Positions 1 to 31,233 of a DNA stretch of 64,000 nt are shown here, in pieces. The translations under genes and the position numbers were made by a program. The notes under the pieces were generated by a model. It did not search any database. It had not been told where the DNA came from and was given only the letters and a program-made list of their open reading frames with translations. The stretch's first letter is position 1, and the number at the start of each line of letters is the position of its first letter. This stretch comes from Thermomonas beijingensis (GTDB lineage: Bacteria; Pseudomonadota; Gammaproteobacteria; Xanthomonadales; Xanthomonadaceae): the NCBI RefSeq assembly GCF_020034655.1, contig NZ_JAIQDJ010000001.1, forward strand, positions 434,001 to 498,000, in the 5' to 3' direction.

Positions 1-2184
1 CAGAAACTTGAGGCGGCGATCGAGAAATTGCGTGGGGGCGAGAAAGTGACCGACGAAAACGCCGAAGAGGCGCGTCAGGCGCTGGAGAAATACACCATCG
101 ACCTGACTGCCCGCGCCGAGTCCGGCAAGTTGGATCCGGTAGTGGGCCGCGACGAAGAAATCCGCCGCACCATTCAAGTCTTGCAGCGGCGCACCAAGAA
201 CAATCCGGTGCTGATCGGCGAACCTGGCGTGGGCAAGACCGCGATTGTGGAAGGGCTTGCCCAGCGTATCGTCAACAACGAGGTGCCCGAAGGCCTGCGC
301 GGCAAGCGCTTGTTGTCGCTGGATATGGGCGCGTTGATTGCGGGCGCGAAGTTCCGTGGTGAGTTCGAGGAACGCCTGAAGGCGGTGCTCAACGATCTGT
401 CGAAGAACGAAGGCCAGATCATTCTGTTTATCGACGAGCTGCACACGATGGTCGGCGCGGGCAAGGCCGAAGGCAGTATGGATGCCGGCAACATGCTGAA
501 ACCGGCGCTGGCGCGCGGCGAGCTGCACTGCATCGGCGCCACCACCCTGGACGAATACCGCAAGTACGTGGAGAAGGATGCTGCGCTGGAGCGCCGCTTC
601 CAGAAGGTGTTCGTCGGGGAGCCCACGGTGGAGGACACCATTGCCATTTTGCGCGGCCTGAAAGAACGCTACGCGGTGCATCACGGGGTGGAAATCACCG
701 ATCCTGCGATCGTTGCCGCCGCCACGCTCTCCAACCGCTACATCGCGGATCGCCAATTGCCGGACAAGGCCATCGACTTGATGGACGAAGCGGCCTCGCG
801 CATCCGCATGGAGATCGACTCCAAGCCGGAAGAAATGGACCGCAAGGAACGTCGCCTGATTCAGCTGAAAATCCAGCGTGAGGCACTGAAAAAAGAGAAA
901 GACGCCGAATCCAAACAGCGCTTGGCTGATCTGGAAGCCGAGATCAATACGCTGGAGCGCGAGTTCAACGACCTGGAGGAAATCTGGAAGGCCGAGAAGG
1001 CCACCTTGCAAGGGGCCACCAAGGTCAAGGAACAGATCGAAGCCGCACGGCTGGAACTGGAAGCCGCACAGCGCCGGCAGGATTACGCGCGCATGAGCGA
1101 AATTCAGTATGGGCAGATTCCGCAATTGGAAAAGCAGCTTGCCGCCGCGCAGGAAGCCGAGACCCGTGGCTTCACCCTGCTGCAAGACAAAGTGACCGCC
1201 GAGGAAATTGCGCAAGTGGTGGCGCGCTGGACCGGCATTCCAGTGTCCAAGATGCTGGAAGGCGAGCGCGAAAAACTCCTGCAGATGGAAGCACAGCTGC
1301 ACACCCGCGTGGTCGGGCAGGAGGAAGCGATCAAAGCGGTGTCGGATGCGGTGCGCCGTTCGCGCGCAGGGCTGTCTGATCCTGATCGCCCCAGCGGCTC
1401 ATTCCTGTTCCTCGGCCCGACCGGCGTGGGCAAGACCGAGCTGTGCAAGGCGTTGGCCGACTTCCTGTTCGACTCCAGCGATGCGATGGTGCGCATCGAC
1501 ATGAGCGAGTTCATGGAAAAGCACAGCGTCAGCCGGCTGATCGGCGCGCCGCCCGGCTATGTGGGTTATGAAGAAGGCGGCTATCTGACCGAGGCCGTGC
1601 GCCGCCGCCCGTATAGCGTGATCTTGCTGGACGAAGTGGAGAAAGCGCATCCGGATGTGTTCAACATCCTGCTGCAAGTGCTCGACGATGGCCGCCTCAC
1701 CGATGGTCAAGGCCGCACCGTGGATTTCCGCAACGCGGTCATCGTGATGACCAGCAACCTTGGCAGCCATCAGATTCAGGAGCTGGCCGGCGACGATTCA
1801 GCCGAGGCTTACCTCCAGATGAAGGCCGCGGTGATGGGGGTGGTGCAAGCGCATTTTCGTCCCGAGTTCATCAACCGGCTGGATGACATCGTGGTGTTCC
1901 ACCCGCTGGACAAGGCGCAGATCAAACAGATTGCGCGCATCCAATTGCGCAGTCTGGAAAAGCGTCTGGGCGAACGCGGCATTCGCATCGAACTATCCGA
2001 TGCGGCGTTCGACCTGCTCGGGAATGTCGGCTTTGATCCGGTCTACGGCGCCCGTCCGCTCAAGCGCGCCATCCAGCAACAACTGGAAAACCCGCTGGCG
2101 CAGCAAATCCTGTCCGGCCAGTTCGGCAATGGCGACGTGGTCAAGGTGGACGCTGAGGGTGGCAGGCTGGTGTTCGTCAAGTGA
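1..2184 (+). CDS. clpB: ClpB disaggregase, N-terminally cut by window edge
   Basis: AAA+ chaperone that works with DnaK to extract and refold aggregated proteins in the cytoplasm. The reading frame is open from base 1, so the start and roughly the first 140 residues (N domain) lie outside the window. Visible in order: end of the N-domain linker, first ATPase module with Walker A GEPGVGKT and Walker B FIDELH, a long charged coiled-coil M domain (about bases 880-1180), and the second module with [22 protein letters not shown] and the SFLFLGPTG core. The C terminus is intact and ends in TGA. The M domain separates it from ClpA and ClpC. Identity is very secure; only the missing N terminus is unseen. 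Confidence 0.97.
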
Positions 2185-2190
2185 TGCCAT

Positions 2191-2216
2191 GCCCCGGCGC
2201 GGATACCGGCCGGGGC
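2191..2216. terminator. Possible bidirectional hairpin terminator
   Basis: GCCCCGGC (2191-2198) pairs perfectly with GCCGGGGC (2209-2216) in the 42-base gap between the convergent ends of clpB and the secreted-protein gene. The T-run on the plus strand is short and sits seven bases beyond the stem, so intrinsic termination is plausible but weak. Confidence 0.45.
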
Positions 2217-2226
2217 GATGCCCGTT

Positions 2227-2823
2227 TTACCTGGCAACAAATTTGAGCGGGCCTTTGTAGTCTGGCCAACGGATGGACGTTGGCAGCCGCTGGTTGAGGG
2301 CGATCTCTGGCGATGCGCTGTCGCCGTTGGTCGACAGGCTTGCCATCAGGGTGGGCATCCAGAAGTTCACCGCAAACGTCGCGTCCTTGTAGATGACCGG
2401 CTTGATATGCAGCGTGGTGGTTTGGCCTGGCTCGATGCGGAATGCCACCACGTCTTCGTTCACATACGCACCCTTGTCGAGGATCTTTTGCACGCTGAAG
2501 GCGGTCGTCATTTCCAGCCCGATGCCGGTAATTCGATAGTCACCGGCGGGAAGTTCGATCGTCTCGGATTGGCCGTAGCGGGTCATGTGATTGATTGGAT
2601 AGTCGATGAACTGCTTGGCCACCATGGTGAATACCAACAGACCATCCTTCACGCCCCATTCGATGCCGCCACTACGCAGCTGCTTGTCGACTTTCTTTGG
2701 CAGCGTCTGTTCGCTGGTGAATGGTGACACGTCAACCACAAGCTGGCCTGCTTGCTGTGCGAAAGCGCTGCGACTGAACAACATCGAGAGCACCAGTGTG
2801 GCGGCAAGCCAGAATTTCAACAT
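2227..2823 (-). CDS. Hypothetical secreted protein, 198 aa
   Basis: Family not recognised. The ATG at 2823 was chosen over upstream in-frame starts because GGAG lies just before it and it opens directly into a classic Sec signal peptide (K3, hydrophobic core to about residue 20, FAQQ cleavage region). The mature part of about 175 residues has no membrane segment and reads like a beta-rich periplasmic or surface protein (for example LPAGDYRITGIGLEM, which resembles DUF2846-type lipid-exported proteins, although no lipobox is present). It converges on clpB and diverges from the cobalamin-binding gene, so it is probably monocistronic. Coding is well supported; function is unknown. Confidence 0.75.
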   Translation of the reverse strand: MLKFWLAATLVLSMLFSRSAFAQQAGQLVVDVSPFTSEQTLPKKVDKQLRSGGIEWGVKDGLLVFTMVAKQFIDYPINHMTRYGQSETIELPAGDYRITGIGLEMTTAFSVQKILDKGAYVNEDVVAFRIEPGQTTTLHIKPVIYKDATFAVNFWMPTLMASLSTNGDSASPEIALNQRLPTSIRWPDYKGPLKFVAR

Positions 2824-3032
2824 GCGAATCTCCGTGATCGTGGTGAGTTTGCTAGCGTGCGTATGATAGCGGCCGCAATTGTGCGGCAATGCGCGGGGAG
2901 TTCGGATGGTATTCAAGTACGGGAGCGAACACGGCCAAGCCGGGCATTCCGATGCGGGTCGCACTGGAGTGTGGCGGTGACGTGCGGGCCAGGGCTGGTG
3001 CGGTTGTCTGCGCCAGTTCGATCGTGACCGTG

Positions 3033-3821
3033 ATGCGGGTGTTTTCGCATACCTGCTCGAATACCGAAATTGTCTGCGCGTTGGGCTGCGCGCAGATGCT
3101 GGTCGGGGTGGACAGTGATTCGGACTATCCCCCCGATGTGGTGGCCGCGCTGCCTAAGACGGGGCGCGATCTGGACTTGAATATCGACGCGGTGCTGGCG
3201 CTCAAGCCCGAGTTGGTACTGACGTCGCTGACGGTGCCGGGGCATGAGAAGGTAGTACACGCATTGCGCGATGCGGGTCTTGCGGTGCTGGTGTGTGATC
3301 CGCAATCACTGCAAGATGTGTATGCCGATATTCAAGCCATTGCCGATGCGCTGGGCGTGCCCGCACGTGGCGTGGCACTGGTGGCGCAGATGGAGGCTTT
3401 GATGCCGGCTGTGGCAGTGGCAGGTGATCGGCCCAAGGTGTTGGTGGAGTGGTGGCCAAAACCGGTGATTGCGCCCGCCAGGTTCTCGTGGGTCACGGAT
3501 CTGATCGAGCGCGCCGGTGGCTGCAACCCATGGGCCGATGAAGACGCGAAGAGTTTGCCGCTGGACCATCCGCGCGTGCTGGCTGCCGCCCCCGACGTGG
3601 TGGTGATGAGCTGGTGCGGGGTGAAAGAGGAGAACTATCGCGCCGAGATTGTCATTCGGCGCGACGGCTGGGCGGCCCTGCCTGCGCTGCAGCATGGACG
3701 CATCCATGCCATTTCCGAAGCCTATCTGGGCCGCCCCGGGCCGCGTCTGGTGGAGGGCTATCGCCGGTTGCGTGCCTGCATTGCAGAGTTGCAGGAACAG
3801 GGCACGCATTCTGCGATTTGA
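3033..3821 (+). CDS. Cobalamin/iron-siderophore type binding protein (BtuF-like), no signal peptide
   Basis: About 262 residues with the class III periplasmic-binding fold typical of BtuF/FhuD: N-terminal MRVFSHTCSNTEIVCALG, then the DLDLNIDAVLALKPELVLTS lobe and the VLVEWWPKP hinge region. Such proteins deliver vitamin B12 or similar chelates to an ABC importer. No btuC or btuD gene lies nearby and no signal peptide follows the chosen start; an in-frame extension back to 2889 adds only low-complexity residues that do not resemble a leader. Cytosolic members of this family are common in Xanthomonadaceae, so its role may not be classical import. GTG at 3024 is an alternative start. Its TGA abuts the stop of the converging esterase gene. 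Confidence 0.75.
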   Translation: MRVFSHTCSNTEIVCALGCAQMLVGVDSDSDYPPDVVAALPKTGRDLDLNIDAVLALKPELVLTSLTVPGHEKVVHALRDAGLAVLVCDPQSLQDVYADIQAIADALGVPARGVALVAQMEALMPAVAVAGDRPKVLVEWWPKPVIAPARFSWVTDLIERAGGCNPWADEDAKSLPLDHPRVLAAAPDVVVMSWCGVKEENYRAEIVIRRDGWAALPALQHGRIHAISEAYLGRPGPRLVEGYRRLRACIAELQEQGTHSAI

Positions 3822-5471
3822 CTACTCGGCATGGGCTGCCAGTTTGCCCGTCGGTTTCCTTGCGGGCCGTTTGGCGCCGGGCCGAGCGATGGCATACATC
3901 TGCCACGCGATATCTTTCATCAGTGCTTGGCGGTCGCTGCCCTCCACATACAGGTCAAAGTGGGTGCGGCCGGGCACAAAACGGAAATCCGACTTGGCGC
4001 CCAAGCCGTCCAGTACCGCCTTGAGCTTGTAGGCAGCGCCGTCCAGATAGAACGTATCGGCGGTGCCTACATAGAGGTGCAGTTTGCCGTCGAGGTCGGG
4101 TTCGAGTTGCGGCCATTGCGTGCGCAGGATGCGGCCGATGTCGTAATGCGCGCCCCAGTACGCCACGACCTGCGGATCCACCTTGCCGGTGCCACGATCG
4201 AACATCGGGGTTGGACGACCATCGGTGCCGCGTGGCGAGAAGACCCACTCAAACGACGCCAGTTGCCCGCCTATCGGGCCGGTCGTTTCTTCCATCCGGG
4301 CGAATTGTTCGAAGCTGGCTTGTACCTTGCCTTTGTCACGCATGATGGGGTACGGGCTGCCATCCGGTTTGCGATAGACATTGGCATTGGCGGCGTACAA
4401 GTCGATACCGCAGAAGTCATCGAATACGCTGGAGTCGGGCGAGGTGGACCATGTACCGCCAAACAGTTTCGGATAGCGCACTTGCAGCCACAGTGTGGCC
4501 CAGCCACCGGAGGAATGGCCGTTGAGGAAGCGGCCGGAGGCTTTGCCATCCATCCGATAGGTGCTTTCCAGATGGGGGATCAATTCTTCCGTCAATGCTT
4601 GCCCCCACGGGCCGTTATTGACCGAATCGGCAAACTCGTGGGTACCGGTGGCGCTGGATTCGTCCAGCAAGACCCAGATCATCGGTGGCAATTCACCCGA
4701 CTGCATGCCGGTATAGGCATTGACGGCGGTGCCAATCAAGCCGCGTTGGTTGCCGCCAAAGCCGTGGGTGAAATACAGCACCGGGTAGCGCGCCGGTGCG
4801 GCACCGTCGTAGCCGGGGGGCAGGACCACCCAACCGTGCATATGGATGGGGCGCCCCCAGAATGCACTGAGCGCGGGGCTGATGAAATCAATTTCACGGG
4901 TGGCCGCTTTTGCCGCGGGTGCCGCCTTGCGAATGGCCTCGGAAAAGCGAGGAGGCAATTGCCACGGGTCCCCCGCTGCCGGCAGCCGTTGATCCAGTAC
5001 CAAGGTGGTGGGTGTGGCGGCCTTGCCCAGCGTCACTTTGACTGGCGCGCTCAAGATGTCATCGGCACCGCGTCCGCCGTAATTGTCATCGCCGGCCACA
5101 TCCAGCACCGCTTGCACGTAATACTCGCCATCGGCCAATTTCGAAAACGACGTTGGCCACGCGAGCGTGTCGGTATCTACCGCAAGCGATTGCCCGGGGG
5201 CCAAGCGTGCAATATCCATCGCGGCCATGCTGGCGTCGTCGGCACCGCCAAACGGGCTGGCATTGACCTCCAACACGTTGCCATCCTTCGCCTTGGCCAG
5301 TGCCTGCGCGGCAGGTTCCGCAAACAGCAGCAAGCGACCAGCGGCACTGGCCGTGGCGGCGGCGGGCAGTTGCACGCGCAGTGGCGCGGAGGTGTCGGCC
5401 TGCGCGCACGCACACAGGGCCAATAGCAGGGCAGCCAAGGATGAACGATGCAGGAATAGCGCATGGCGCAT
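3822..5471 (-). CDS. Secreted alpha/beta-hydrolase esterase, about 549 aa
   Basis: Predicted exported esterase of the esterase-D/enterochelin-esterase superfamily. Start ATG 5471 has GGAG seven bases upstream and begins a signal peptide (hydrophobic run LAALLLALCACAQA; a cysteine there might allow lipidation but the lipobox is poor). An N-terminal region of about 200 residues precedes the catalytic domain, where GHSSGGW is the nucleophile elbow and RTHFDLYVEG near the end supplies a likely catalytic His. YFTHGFGGN resembles an oxyanion-hole loop. Substrate unknown. It diverges from the deacetylase gene at 5656 and its TAG directly abuts the TGA of the gene at 3033-3821. Confidence 0.8.
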   Translation of the reverse strand: MRHALFLHRSSLAALLLALCACAQADTSAPLRVQLPAAATASAAGRLLLFAEPAAQALAKAKDGNVLEVNASPFGGADDASMAAMDIARLAPGQSLAVDTDTLAWPTSFSKLADGEYYVQAVLDVAGDDNYGGRGADDILSAPVKVTLGKAATPTTLVLDQRLPAAGDPWQLPPRFSEAIRKAAPAAKAATREIDFISPALSAFWGRPIHMHGWVVLPPGYDGAAPARYPVLYFTHGFGGNQRGLIGTAVNAYTGMQSGELPPMIWVLLDESSATGTHEFADSVNNGPWGQALTEELIPHLESTYRMDGKASGRFLNGHSSGGWATLWLQVRYPKLFGGTWSTSPDSSVFDDFCGIDLYAANANVYRKPDGSPYPIMRDKGKVQASFEQFARMEETTGPIGGQLASFEWVFSPRGTDGRPTPMFDRGTGKVDPQVVAYWGAHYDIGRILRTQWPQLEPDLDGKLHLYVGTADTFYLDGAAYKLKAVLDGLGAKSDFRFVPGRTHFDLYVEGSDRQALMKDIAWQMYAIARPGAKRPARKPTGKLAAHAE

Positions 5472-27568: not shown

Positions 27569-28255
27569 ATGAACGACGTCGCCGATGCGGCCGCCGCAGC
27601 GGCGGCCCTCCAGCCCGAGCGCCTCAAGCTCACCGAAATCTTCCTGTCTCTGCAGGGCGAAGCCCGCGATGCGGGTTGGCCCACGGTGTTCGTGCGGTTG
27701 ACCGGCTGCCCCCTGCGCTGCACCTATTGCGACACCACCTATTCGTTTTACGGTGGGCAGTGGTGGGAGATCGACGCTATTCTGGCGGAGGTGGCCAAAC
27801 ACGGCGTGCGCCATGTGTGCGTCACCGGCGGTGAGCCGTTATCGCAAAAACGCTGCCTGACCTTGCTGGAAAAGTTGTGCGATGCCGGTTATGTGGTGTC
27901 GCTGGAAACCTCGGGCGCTATTGCCATCGACGGTGTGGATACGCGGGTGTCGCGGGTGCTGGATATCAAAACCCCGGGTTCGGGCGAAGTGGCGCGCAAC
28001 CTGTGGAGCAACCTGCCGCTGCTGACCGCGCACGACCAGGTCAAGGCAGTGATTTGCTCGCGTGAAGATTTCGATTGGGCCAAACAAATCGTGCTGCAAC
28101 ATCGCTTGTTCGAGGTGTGCGACGTGCTGTTTTCGCCCAGCGCCGGCCAGATCACGCCGCGTATGTTGGCAGACTGGATCATCGAAGAAAAATTACCGGT
28201 GCGCTTTCAGATGCAATTACACAAAGTGTTGTGGGGCGAGGAGCCGGGCCGATGA
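27569..28255 (+). CDS. queE: 7-carboxy-7-deazaguanine synthase QueE
   Basis: Radical-SAM enzyme of queuosine synthesis that converts 6-carboxytetrahydropterin to 7-carboxy-7-deazaguanine. 228 residues; the cluster motif is [13 protein letters not shown], giving C-x3-C-x2-C, followed by VTGGEPLSQ and LETSGA. Start ATG 27569, ten bases after cpoB. Its TGA overlaps the queC ATG (ATGA). The tol-pal to queE-queC to tRNA-Lys order is also known from pseudomonads. Confidence 0.95.
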
Positions 28256-28947
28256 AACCTGCAGTGGTACTGGTGTCCGGGGGCATGGATTCGGCGGTGG
28301 TGCTGGCCATTGCCCGTGAGCAGGGATTTGCGGCACATGCGCTCAGCGTGCGCTACGGCCAGCGTCACACCTCGGAATTGGATGCCGCCGCACGCGTGGC
28401 CATCGCCCTTGGCGCGGTGGCACACAAGACCGTGAATGTGGATCTGCGCAGCATTGGCGGTTCGGCATTGACCGACGATATTGCGGTGCCCACCGACACC
28501 GATGGCCACATCATCGGGCAGGGCATCCCGTCCACCTATGTGCCGGCGCGCAACACCATCATGCTTTCGGTGGCGCTGGGCTGGGCCGAAGTGTTGGGCG
28601 CCACCGACCTGTTTTGCGGGGTCAACGCGGTGGATTATTCCGGCTACCCGGACTGCCGCCCGGCGTTCATCGCCGGCTTCGAAGCGCTGGCCAATCTGGC
28701 CACCAAGGCAGGCGTGGAGGGCAGCCACTTCCGGGTGCACGCGCCACTGATGCGCATGAGCAAAGCCGAGATCGCGCGTGAGGGCCTGCGCCTGGGCGTG
28801 GACTTCGCGCAGACCGTAAGCTGCTATCAGGCCGATGCCGATGGTCGCGCCTGCGGCCATTGCGATGCCTGTCATTTGCGTGCACAAGGCTTCAATGAAG
28901 CCGGAATTTTGGACCCAACCCGCTACATGGCGGCGCGATTCGGTTAG
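28252..28947 (+). CDS. queC: 7-cyano-7-deazaguanine synthase QueC
   Basis: ATP-dependent enzyme that turns 7-carboxy-7-deazaguanine into preQ0. 231 residues with the PP-loop [10 protein letters not shown] near the N terminus, [17 protein letters not shown] in the middle and a four-Cys zinc site at the end (SCYQ...[14 protein letters not shown]). ATG 28252 overlaps the queE stop; the upstream in-frame extension to 28075 is out-of-frame queE sequence. Confidence 0.96.
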
Positions 28948-28958
28948 AATGCGCACCC

Positions 28959-28982
28959 CGATGCAATGTCGGGCATCGTTTT
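28959..28982 (+). terminator. Weak hairpin plus T4 between queC and tRNA-Lys
   Basis: CGATGC (28959-28964) pairs with GCATCG (28973-28978) and is followed by TTTT. A competing stem CCCGA/TCGGG uses the same bases. It may partly end queC transcripts ahead of the tRNA. Confidence 0.35.
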
Positions 28983-28988
28983 CCCTGT

Positions 28989-29064
28989 GGGCCGTTAGCT
29001 CAGTCGGTAGAGCAGAAGACTTTTAATCTTTTGGTCGATGGTTCGAATCCATCACGGCCCACCA
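28989..29064 (+). tRNA. tRNA-Lys (anticodon TTT)
   Basis: 76 bases with an encoded CCA. Acceptor GGGCCGT pairs with ACGGCCC, the D arm is GCTC...GAGC, the anticodon loop CTTTTAA has TTT at 29022-29024, and the T arm is GATGG-TTCGAAT-CCATC. It lies downstream of the tol-pal/que genes, a position for tRNA-Lys shared with other gammaproteobacteria. Its last 16 bases are the beginning of the tandem repeats that follow. Confidence 0.97.
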
Positions 29065-29346
29065 TCGAATTCACAAAGAACCCAGGCTGGATTGCCAGCC
29101 ACGCGCTTGCATGCGCGTGGCGTTTGCACAGGCCGCGAACCGGTGGTTCGCAAGCGGCCTGTGCGCACCCATCACGGCCCACCATCGAATTCACAAAGAA
29201 CCCAGGCTGGATTGCCAGCCACGCGCTTGCATGCGCGTGGCGTTTGCACAGGCCGCGAACCGGTGGTTCGCAAGCGGCCTGCGCGCACCCATCACGGCCC
29301 ACCATCGAATTCACAAAGAACCCAGGCTGGATTGCCAGCCACGCGC
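29049..29346 (+). repeat. Tandem 120-bp repeats containing the tRNA-Lys 3' end (about 2.5 copies)
   Basis: The tRNA 3' sequence CCATCACGGCCCACCA occurs at 29049, 29169 and 29289, an exact 120-base period. Units 1 (29051-29170) and 2 (29171-29290) differ at one base (T 29162, C 29282); unit 3 stops after about 56 bases at 29346, seven bases short of the recQ stop. Each full unit holds hairpins: GGCTGG/CCAGCC (29085-29100), GCCACGCGC/GCGCGTGGC (29098-29121), which overlap and exclude one another, and an 11-bp stem GCACAGGCCGC/GCGGCCTGTGC (29126-29164). There is no strong gene in it, though 120 is divisible by three so frames repeat every 40 codons. It resembles the E. coli tyrT repeats that yield rtT RNA. 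Confidence 0.95.
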
Positions 29347-29352
29347 CCGTGC

Positions 29353-31158
29353 TTAGTCTCTTTGCAGCACATCCAACACCGCCTCGCCATAGCGTTCCAG
29401 CTTGCCGGCACCCACGCCGCTGATGGCGGCCAGCGCAGTGAGGGTGTGCGGGTGGTGTTGGGCAATGCTGCGCAAGGTGGCGTCGTGAAAGATCACGTAG
29501 GCGGGCACGTTTTGCTCGCGTGCGGTGCTGCTGCGCCAGTTGCGCAGGGTATCGAAGCGCGCTTCGGCGTCAGGGGAGAGTGCACGGTTGATGCTGGCGG
29601 TGGTGTCATTGCGACGGCGCGTGCGCTCGCGCTTGTTGGGGTCTTCACGCAGGTGAAGCTGGTGTTCGCCGCGCAGCAGCGGGGTGGCGGCTTGGGTCAG
29701 GCGCAATGCGCCAAAGCTGTCGAAGTCGGCCTCCAGCAAGCCGGCGGCCACCAGTTGCCGGAACACGCTGCGCCAGCGCGATGCGTCCAGTTCGCTGCCG
29801 ATGCCGTAGGTGCTGACCGTGTGGTGGCCGAATTGGCGCACTTTGGCGTTGTCGGCACCGCGCAAGACGTCGATCAGATGTGCCGCGCCAAAGCGCTGCC
29901 CGGTGCGATAGGCGCACGACAGCGCTTTGCGTGCAGCCTCGGTGGCATCCCAGACGCGTGGCGGGAGCAAGCAGTTGTCGCAATGGCCGCAGCCACCACC
30001 GTGGGCTTCGCCAAAATAGGCCAGCAGGCTTTGCCGGCGGCAGCCGGTGGACTCGCAATAGCCGATCAGTGCATCCAGTTTGGCGTTTTCCAGGCGCTTG
30101 CGTTCCTCGCTGGCCTCGCCCTCGGCAATCATCTTGCGCAGCAGCACGGCATCACCCAGACCATAGGCCAGCCATGCTTCCGAGGCTTCACCATCGCGGC
30201 CGGCGCGGCCGGTTTCCTGATAATAGCCTTCCAGTGATTTTGGCAGGTCCAAATGCGCAACAAAGCGCACATCGGGCTTGTCGATGCCCATGCCAAACGC
30301 AATCGTGGCCACCATCACGATGCCGTCTTCGTGCAGAAAACGGCGCTGATGGGTGGCGCGTGTGGCCGCATCCAGCCCGGCGTGATACGGCAGCGCGTTG
30401 ACACCTTGCTCGACCAGCAGCTCCGCAGTGGCCTCGACCTTGCGCCGCGACAGGCAATAGACGATGCCGCTTGCGTTGGCATGGCCCTCCAGAAAATCCA
30501 ACAGCTGGCGGCGGCTGTTGTGCTTGGCGGCAACGTTGTAGCGGATGTTGGGGCGATCAAACGAGCTGACAAATTGGCGTGCGTCTTCCAGCGCCAGACG
30601 CTCCACGATTTCCCGCCGGGTGGGCGCGTCGGCGGTGGCAGTCAGTGCGATGCGCGGTACCTGCGGCCAGCGTTCGTGCAGCAAGGTGAGCTGGCGATAC
30701 TCGGGGCGGAAATCATGGCCCCATTGCGACACGCAATGCGCTTCATCGATGGCGAACAGGGCAATCTGCGTGCGTTCCAGCAGCGCCAGAAAGCGCGCTG
30801 TCAGCAGGCGTTCGGGGGCGACGTAGAGCAGGTCCAGCCCGTCATCGACAAGTTGCTGTTCCACTTGCGCGGCGCTGCGGGCATCCAGACTGGAATTGAG
30901 GAAGGCGGCGCGCACGCCCAGCTGACGCAAGGCCTCCACTTGGTCTTGCATCAGCGCAATCAGCGGCGACACCACAATCGCGGTACCGGCGCGCAGCAAC
31001 GCCGGCAGTTGGTAGCACAGCGATTTGCCGCCGCCGGTAGGCATCAGCACCAGCGCATCACCGCCGCCAGTGACGTGCTCGACAATCTGGCCTTGCTCGC
31101 CGCGGAAGCGGTCGTATCCAAAGACGTGGCGAAGTGTATCGAGTGCGGCGGAAGGCAT
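29353..31158 (-). CDS. recQ: RecQ DNA helicase
   Basis: 3'-5' superfamily 2 helicase of recombination repair, 601 residues from ATG 31158 ([22 protein letters not shown]). Motif [13 protein letters not shown], motif [22 protein letters not shown], motif [14 protein letters not shown], a zinc-binding region with [12 protein letters not shown] and CGHCDNC, a winged-helix domain, and a C-terminal HRDC domain ([16 protein letters not shown]). An in-frame extension to 31218 is not supported. The gene converges on the tRNA-Lys repeats and ends seven bases from them. Confidence 0.96.
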
Positions 31159-31207
31159 CCGCCTAGAGTAGCAAGCGTTGCTGTTCGCCCGATACGCGCA
31201 CCATGCA

Positions 31208-31233
31208 GCCCCTCCCATCGCGCCGGGAGGGGC
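31208..31233 (-). terminator. GC hairpin after dps
   Basis: GCCCCTCCC (31208-31216) pairs with GGGAGGGGC (31225-31233), nine perfect pairs with an eight-base loop, in the 84-base gap between dps and recQ. No T-run follows on either strand, so it could end dps transcription only with help or could stabilise the dps mRNA end. Confidence 0.35.

Follow-up and report, generated by a model that had tools for sequence, protein, structure and literature searches.

Tandem tRNA tails behind a Thermomonas tRNA-Lys gene are probably the target duplications of a short mobile element

The window analysed here, a stretch of 64,000 nucleotides from Thermomonas beijingensis (contig NZ_JAIQDJ010000001.1), carries on its plus strand a tRNA-Lys gene with the anticodon TTT (28989..29064; called by ARAGORN and matched by Rfam RF00005 with 77 bits), followed by a tandem array that lies between queC and the convergent recQ. 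The upstream queC ORF (28075..28947, plus strand; Pfam QueC over residues 63-276) is given as in the ORF list, its true start probably being later than the listed TTG, and recQ (29353..31218, minus strand; ORF list, Pfam DEAD/RQC/HRDC) has its stop 6 bp beyond the array end. The last 16 bases of the tRNA (positions 61-76, CCATCACGGCCCACCA, 29049..29064), set off in the gene by the border TTCGAAT/CC, recur at 29169..29184 and 29289..29304, i.e., at a spacing of exactly 120, which bears out an earlier note that had described, from the letters alone, a tRNA-Lys gene followed by 120-bp repeats carrying the tRNA 3' end. The two full units (29065..29184 and 29185..29304, plus strand, 120 bp each, with a tail copy at the end) differ solely at 29162 (T) and 29282 (C), and a partial third unit (29305..29346) extends 42 bases beyond its CCA (58 from the first base of the tail), so that the count of two full units with one difference and a shorter third also stands.

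Each full unit contains one copy of a structured sequence that we call element X (29094..29172 and 29214..29292), laid out as hairpin 1, GTTC, a bulged hairpin 2 and a right end TCAC/CC. Hairpin 1 of the first copy (29098..29121) has 9 bp and the loop TTGCAT, and hairpin 2 (29126..29164), which rests on the fold and on helix covariation across copies, has 15-16 bp, a 4-base bulge and a GCGAACC/GGTTCGC apex; its lower part, GCACAGGCCGC with GCGGCCTGTGC, corresponds, by eye on the fold, to the 11-bp stem described previously. In the second copy (hairpin 1, 29218..29241; hairpin 2, 29246..29284) the fold confirms that the T-to-C change at 29282 breaks the long stem by opening one A-T pair, and the hairpin-2 pieces go from -24.3 to -20.9 kcal/mol. 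The overlapping hairpins that had been proposed were likewise recovered, since GGCTGG..CCAGCC, on the minus strand at 29085-29100, forms a short stem that shares bases with hairpin 1. The tail copy behind the first X is joined to it at GCAC/CC.

Conventional searches found little beyond the tRNA. The 120-bp unit has no second BLAST match in its own genome at E<=0.001, and the unit without the tail gave there only short, weak matches (E 0.67 or more), so that a covariance model was needed to reveal its relatives. In the window, the tRNA alone exceeded the Rfam thresholds; three sub-threshold matches (E 0.033-1.2; two plastid UTR models on the minus strand of the tRNA, and Atu_C7) were taken as chance. 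In a phage collection 486 records matched, none covering more than 80% of the query, and the 20 matches listed comprise only the tRNA part, give or take a dozen bases; in a plasmid collection the part after the tRNA had no match. The array was found again on an independent MAG contig (L294, JAFEDI010000033.1) with 98.9% identity to the window over 1142 bp, which disfavors the assembly duplication that had been named as a possible refutation. This contig holds one X copy against two in the window, a count that may not be original, as the left side of its array is other DNA and the tRNA is absent from the contig. The DNA on that side (positions 1-3949) encodes a RepB-type primase.

A covariance model (R1) was built from 25 aligned X copies, one of which is the first copy of the window; the two window copies match it with E 1.9e-11 (G000:C1:463094-463172) and 7.2e-11 (G000:C1:463214-463292), respectively. 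In the alignment, hairpin 1 is followed in most copies by GTTC and then by a variable 8-bp stem that carries the apex GCGAACC-NGT-GGTTCGC; a bulge, AANC, precedes the second strand of this stem, and most copies close with TCACCC. Copies with both hairpins were chosen, a choice that leans towards structure, and the apex was the search bait, so that its constancy is uninformative and the variable stems constitute the test. In helix 2 all eight pairs change on both sides in some copies, and 84.5% of cells pair. Over X as a whole, 85.4% of cells are paired, compared with 71.6% in shuffles and 31-43% in slid controls, and 90 cells are changed on both sides, compared with 34 in shuffles; the number of pairs with a both-sided change (13, against 11.7 in shuffles, with 135 of 500 shuffles reaching 13) is not above chance. 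Collectively, these data show that the hairpins of X are maintained by compensatory change. Stem sequences differ among X copies of one genome, which indicates that many copies are old and is a point against the mobile-element reading favored below.

X is widespread in the family. Within the genus, R1 found it in 20 of 25 genomes (127 matches in 106 clusters at E<=0.01), and in the family it was detected in 138 of 198 genomes and 45 of 54 genera (E<=1e-5), copy numbers being lower bounds because at most 150 (genus) or 24 (family) candidates were scored per genome. In a class-wide sample only five of 185 genomes matched, and three of these are members of the family. The two outsiders (L347 in G348, L348 in G293) have copies of X-like hairpins in or next to partial tRNA genes, namely the 5' part of a tRNA-Leu (by eye) in a 149-bp tandem and the 5' part of a tRNA-Arg; for tRNA-Arg it is the 5' end of the gene that is duplicated, the start again being TCAC/CC. 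The 17-base palindrome in hairpin 2, searched with up to one mismatch, matched 30 of 99 related genomes, and since the reversed control also matched (9 of 99), single matches with one mismatch were not counted as X. Among 20 palindrome stretches, one lies in a tRNA-Arg(CCG) array with 116-bp units and one, in another genus, in a tRNA-Ser(CGA) array with 109-bp units; ARAGORN found no tRNA on the remaining 18.

The sites occupied by X include intergenic space, an open recB frame and the 5' ends of purA and ruvA. The recB copy (L093, G011:C5:770415-770491) lies within an open frame of 866 codons and appears to be translated in frame. At least 15 of the 106 clusters in the genus follow a same-strand tRNA at a distance of up to about 150 bp, a number that comes from a subset of flanks and represents four tRNA loci rather than independent events. 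Other arrangements were also seen. In the window's genome (G000:C1:1051597-1051882), X-like units that lack an obvious target piece recur in tandem every 69-72 bp beside what is probably the 3' end of guaA (gene name by eye), and similar clusters occur in G004:C6, G012:C233 and G021:C114. In G163 (L269-L284), most of the 22 X copies listed are embedded in another palindromic repeat, CCCCCATCCCAACC..CCCCCGCGGAGCGGGGG, which is C-rich and abundant.

The earlier note knew of no case like this one for tRNA-Lys. In fact, arrays of tail and X are found behind tRNA-Lys(TTT), tRNA-Lys(CTT), two tRNA-Arg types (CCG and ACG) and tRNA-Ser(CGA), and the window's own genome holds a second one, a single unit behind tRNA-Arg(CCG). 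A survey of the 25 genus genomes revealed, among the matches listed, the last 15 tRNA bases repeated in this layout: behind tRNA-Lys(CTT) in G008, G012, G015, G021 and G023 the period is 164-181, and behind tRNA-Lys(TTT) in G011 it is 117. When a collection of named genomes was searched for the X end joined to the tRNA-Lys tail, 16 stretches were recovered. In 12 of them, from Thermomonas, Luteimonas and relatives, a tail array follows tRNA-Lys(CTT); the match in L296, inside what looks like coding sequence, was taken as chance.

Some of these loci show further features. In several tRNA-Lys(CTT) arrays (L018, L020, L023 and the Luteimonas loci L299-L302 and L304) the units contain GGATTCGAACC, the reverse complement of a tRNA T-arm, upstream of X, and in L304 ARAGORN calls a tRNA-Ser-like gene on the opposite strand. 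A different array directly follows tRNA-Lys(TTT) in L012, L014, L015, L016 and L022 (G010, G004, G005, G006 and G013), with units of 71-75 bases that by eye resemble degenerate tRNA-Lys copies: a D-arm-like hairpin, a shortened anticodon loop, and the T-arm and CCA are retained, the 5' strand of the acceptor stem is absent, and there are one to five additional CCACCA ends. The tRNA-Lys of L022 has an extra base in its anticodon loop, which may be a sequencing error, and ARAGORN assigns it no anticodon. In G003 an X unit with a tRNA tail lies 45 kb from tRNA-Lys(TTT) (G003:C1:1821211 and 1866875), and in G023 (L008) unrelated sequence follows tRNA-Lys(TTT).

The clearest indication of how X arrives at a site comes from genomes in which it is missing. 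At the 5' end of purA, G019 carries two 38-bp copies (36 of 38 positions alike) flanking a 109-bp insert with X, and 15 of the 24 other genomes of the genus have only one copy of these 38 bp, as judged from two BLAST matches overlapping by exactly 38 bp in each of the 15. Similarly, at the 5' end of ruvA, where the two copies in G005 are identical over 48 bp, 18 of 24 genomes have a single copy with an overlap of 45-68 bp; among these is G013, 96-97% identical to G005 at this locus, with an overlap of 57 bp and an insert of 114 bp. These counts exclude nine of 24 genomes at purA and six of 24 at ruvA, the latter being G002, G004 and G019, with other or shared inserts, and G020, G022 and G024, which fell outside judgement. 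X was thus inserted at purA and ruvA with a target duplication of tens of bases. A comparable pair exists at tRNA-Arg(CCG), where in G002 the CCA of the tRNA is followed by 15 bp and then ubiA, and in G003 the tRNA precedes a 101-bp stretch that contains X, behind which a 16-bp copy of the tail ends 16 bp short of ubiA; a second, weaker pair (G001 against G009) gives about 33 bp.

Across 14 loci that were compared, mutL (L173) included, the copies are 85-139 bp apart and the duplicated stretch is 16-65 bp long. These duplication lengths are probably minimum values, as diverged noncoding parts no longer align, in which case the insert lengths are overestimated. X itself measures about 85-140 bp, its right end TCAC lying beside a C-run. 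Of 91 X copies, 29 have a repeated 14-mer near the end of the model, the other 62 having none within the range searched, and in most of the 29 the repeat restarts directly after TCAC or a close variant. On the source side it starts with C or CC, which in tRNA-Lys and tRNA-Arg follows TTCGAAT (position 60/61); the border in tRNA-Ser(CGA) is not at position 61, L083, L085 and L099 are more ambiguous, and the repeat of L088 is a fortuitous palindrome. This listing of junctions, which required only a repeated 14-mer, supports a near-constant right end of X; the comparison of the 14 loci is no proof of a constant one, as it took only TCAC, TCGC, TTAC, GCAC or TCAT ahead of the junction.

The window's own locus is the weakest step in the argument for target duplication. 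A clean empty site was sought for it and none was found. The distance from the CCA to the recQ stop is 41 bp in G001 and 49 bp in G009 (counted by eye), and it is 48 bp in the third copy of the window, the left arm of hairpin 1 included; because it contains this arm, the third copy is probably a further unit cut short, and less likely a clean target duplication. In L020, L033 and L099, too, the last copy extends into hairpin 1.

Taken together, we favor, with a probability of roughly two in three, the reading that the array marks the activity of X as a short, non-autonomous mobile element, the tRNA tails being its target duplications, later amplified. X would land just behind or within the 3' end of a tRNA gene, with the duplicated target starting at C61, so that each X is trailed by a further copy of the tRNA tail and the tRNA gene stays intact, its first copy either untouched or rebuilt. 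We infer that the tRNA arrays began by the same mode of insertion as at purA and ruvA and grew by recombination: several units could arise through recombination or slippage between repeats, or through repeated insertion, and arrays could shrink by these routes as well. Judging from its hairpin ends and from the C-C microhomology at the junction, X may be joined as a single strand. Such a strand, of DNA or RNA, would be joined via its 3' end, which would either act as a primer or be ligated at a GG of the opposite strand.

The best surviving alternative needs no insertion. X would already have been present downstream of the tRNA, and during replication the nascent strand would slip from the C-run after hairpin 2 back to an upstream CC. 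Slippage of this kind is provoked by strong hairpins, and both the exact tandem units and the C-rich microhomology of one to five bases seen at junctions would be expected of it. However, X is wholly absent from the empty sites; at single-unit loci the target copy leads straight into the native flank, and X does not occur a second time; and four tRNA types have their source border at position 61 despite nearer CC sites, tRNA-Ser being the exception. The empty sites at purA and ruvA in particular weaken slippage, which we regard as improbable as an origin of the arrays and which could still account for the step from one unit to two.

A somewhat poorer account, also improbable, is the one that the earlier note had drawn from the E. 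coli tyrT locus, namely that the array belongs to the tRNA-Lys transcript and that 3' processing frees structured RNAs of about 120 bases, akin to rtT RNA. On this account the RNAs would have a regulatory role. The parallel holds for the layout. At tyrT of E. coli MG1655 the 178-bp repeats restart at GAGTAAT/CC, compared with GTTCGAAT/CC in the tRNA, i.e., close to the same T-loop/T-stem border as in the window, and both tyrT/tyrV and the present arrays are tandem repeats behind a tRNA gene with units each ending in the tRNA 3' tail. It does not extend to the RNA: RF00391 (RtT), which as a control gave four matches in the tyrTV locus, matched nothing in the window, even at E<=10 over 28980-29360, and none of 12 other loci scanned at its gathering score, and R1 had no match in E. 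coli tyrTV at E<=10. The strong, covarying hairpins would suit a functional RNA, and the plus strand has no terminator-like site from the tRNA to the end of the array, so that a read-through RNA is possible in the window. On the other hand, X also occurs in protein genes and in intergenic space with no tRNA on the stretch fetched, and in Luteimonas saliphila an intrinsic terminator is called between tRNA-Lys(CTT) and X, for which reason the main tRNA transcript of that locus should not include X. A terminator visible by eye behind tRNA-Arg(ACG) (GCCGGCC-TCAG-GGCCGGC-T7) was not called by the scan and was left out of the argument. With X scattered through the family and duplicating its landing site, the tRNA tails are best read as such duplications, not as a purpose-built RNA. 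Finally, the tRNA T-loop is a known crossover site for integration, and G003 and L294 have DNA of foreign appearance that separates tRNA-Lys from the X unit or adjoins the unit, yet tail copies left behind by tyrosine-recombinase islands are a very improbable source of the arrays, given that X measures only about 100 bp, has the same fold at different tRNAs and comes with duplications at the 5' ends of purA and ruvA as well.

If X is mobile, as we favor, the enzyme that moves it is unlikely to be a Y1/RAYT transposase, a candidate rejected on linkage and on presence and absence. None of 24 Y1 loci of the genus had an R1 match better than E 0.41, and none of 30 Y1 loci from X-rich genomes had one at E<=0.01 (up to 1.5 kb on each side in both cases); furthermore, PF01797 was not found in the X-rich genomes G239, G224, G208 and G102, or in the X-carrying G004, G005, G007, G008, G012 and G020 of the genus. 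Some Y1_Tnp loci (L111, L114, L115 and L122) have repeats of the GGGGTCAGGTTCACTT type near RAYT-like genes, in both orientations, which are unrelated to X. X does share with REP sequences, as far as the account in PMC3733652 covers them, that it is short, dispersed and hairpin-forming, with subunits that differ by complementary changes in their stems, and that it is apparently mostly intergenic and sometimes lies in genes: REPs occur at one site within Xanthomonas recB, and X occurs in the open recB frame of G011. The same account describes large REP clusters, tandemly reiterated with their flanking DNA, and super-families that carry GTAG or CGTC tags (PMC3733652). X differs from these in its two unlike hairpins, in its long target duplications and in the foot of its hairpin, for which the majority sequence in the 25 aligned copies is GTTC rather than either tag. 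Known IS200/IS605 elements make no larger target duplications (PMC2817692), whereas X has duplications of 38 bp at purA and 48-57 bp at ruvA. Dispersed and palindromic as it is, X thus fits REP only in the broad sense.

In a literature search, mostly of open-access text, we recognised no description of X or of the tRNA-tail arrays of the family. MITEs, ERIC, Correia and Rickettsia palindromic elements resemble X in being about 100 bp long, palindromic and non-autonomous, some of them lying inside genes; those of them with known target duplications have very short ones, whereas X duplicates 16 to about 60 bp. Eukaryotic SINEs are structured, with a fixed 3' end, a variable 5' end, variable target duplications and short homology at the 3' junction. 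X has duplications of variable length at the two empty-site loci and the 14 compared loci, and its fixed end, in part an input of the script for those 14, rests on the junction listing; it differs from SINE-like retroposons in being bacterial, about 100 bp long and devoid of an A-tail. A tentative version of our reading, unlikely as it stands, is that X represents a bacterial retroposon of the SINE type or moves by another single-strand mechanism. In that case, a structured transcript or strand ending in UCACC would pair with the GG end of a nicked target and be copied in, leaving target duplications of 16 to about 60 bp behind. In more than one lineage of the Gammaproteobacteria, tRNA genes would then be hot spots, and the rtT repeats of E. 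coli could be old marks of a similar process.

These observations extend an oddity seen at a single tRNA gene to an element, probably mobile, that occurs across the family and bears clear marks of insertion. They provide a testable origin at the DNA level for repeats of tRNA tails, perhaps also for the rtT arrays, and, if the long target duplications are true, X would use a route unlike that of any bacterial miniature element known to us. On the MAG contig L294 a tail copy marks the boundary between the array and other DNA, and the spare tRNA tails left by X might serve as landing or decoy sites for integrative elements in these genomes.
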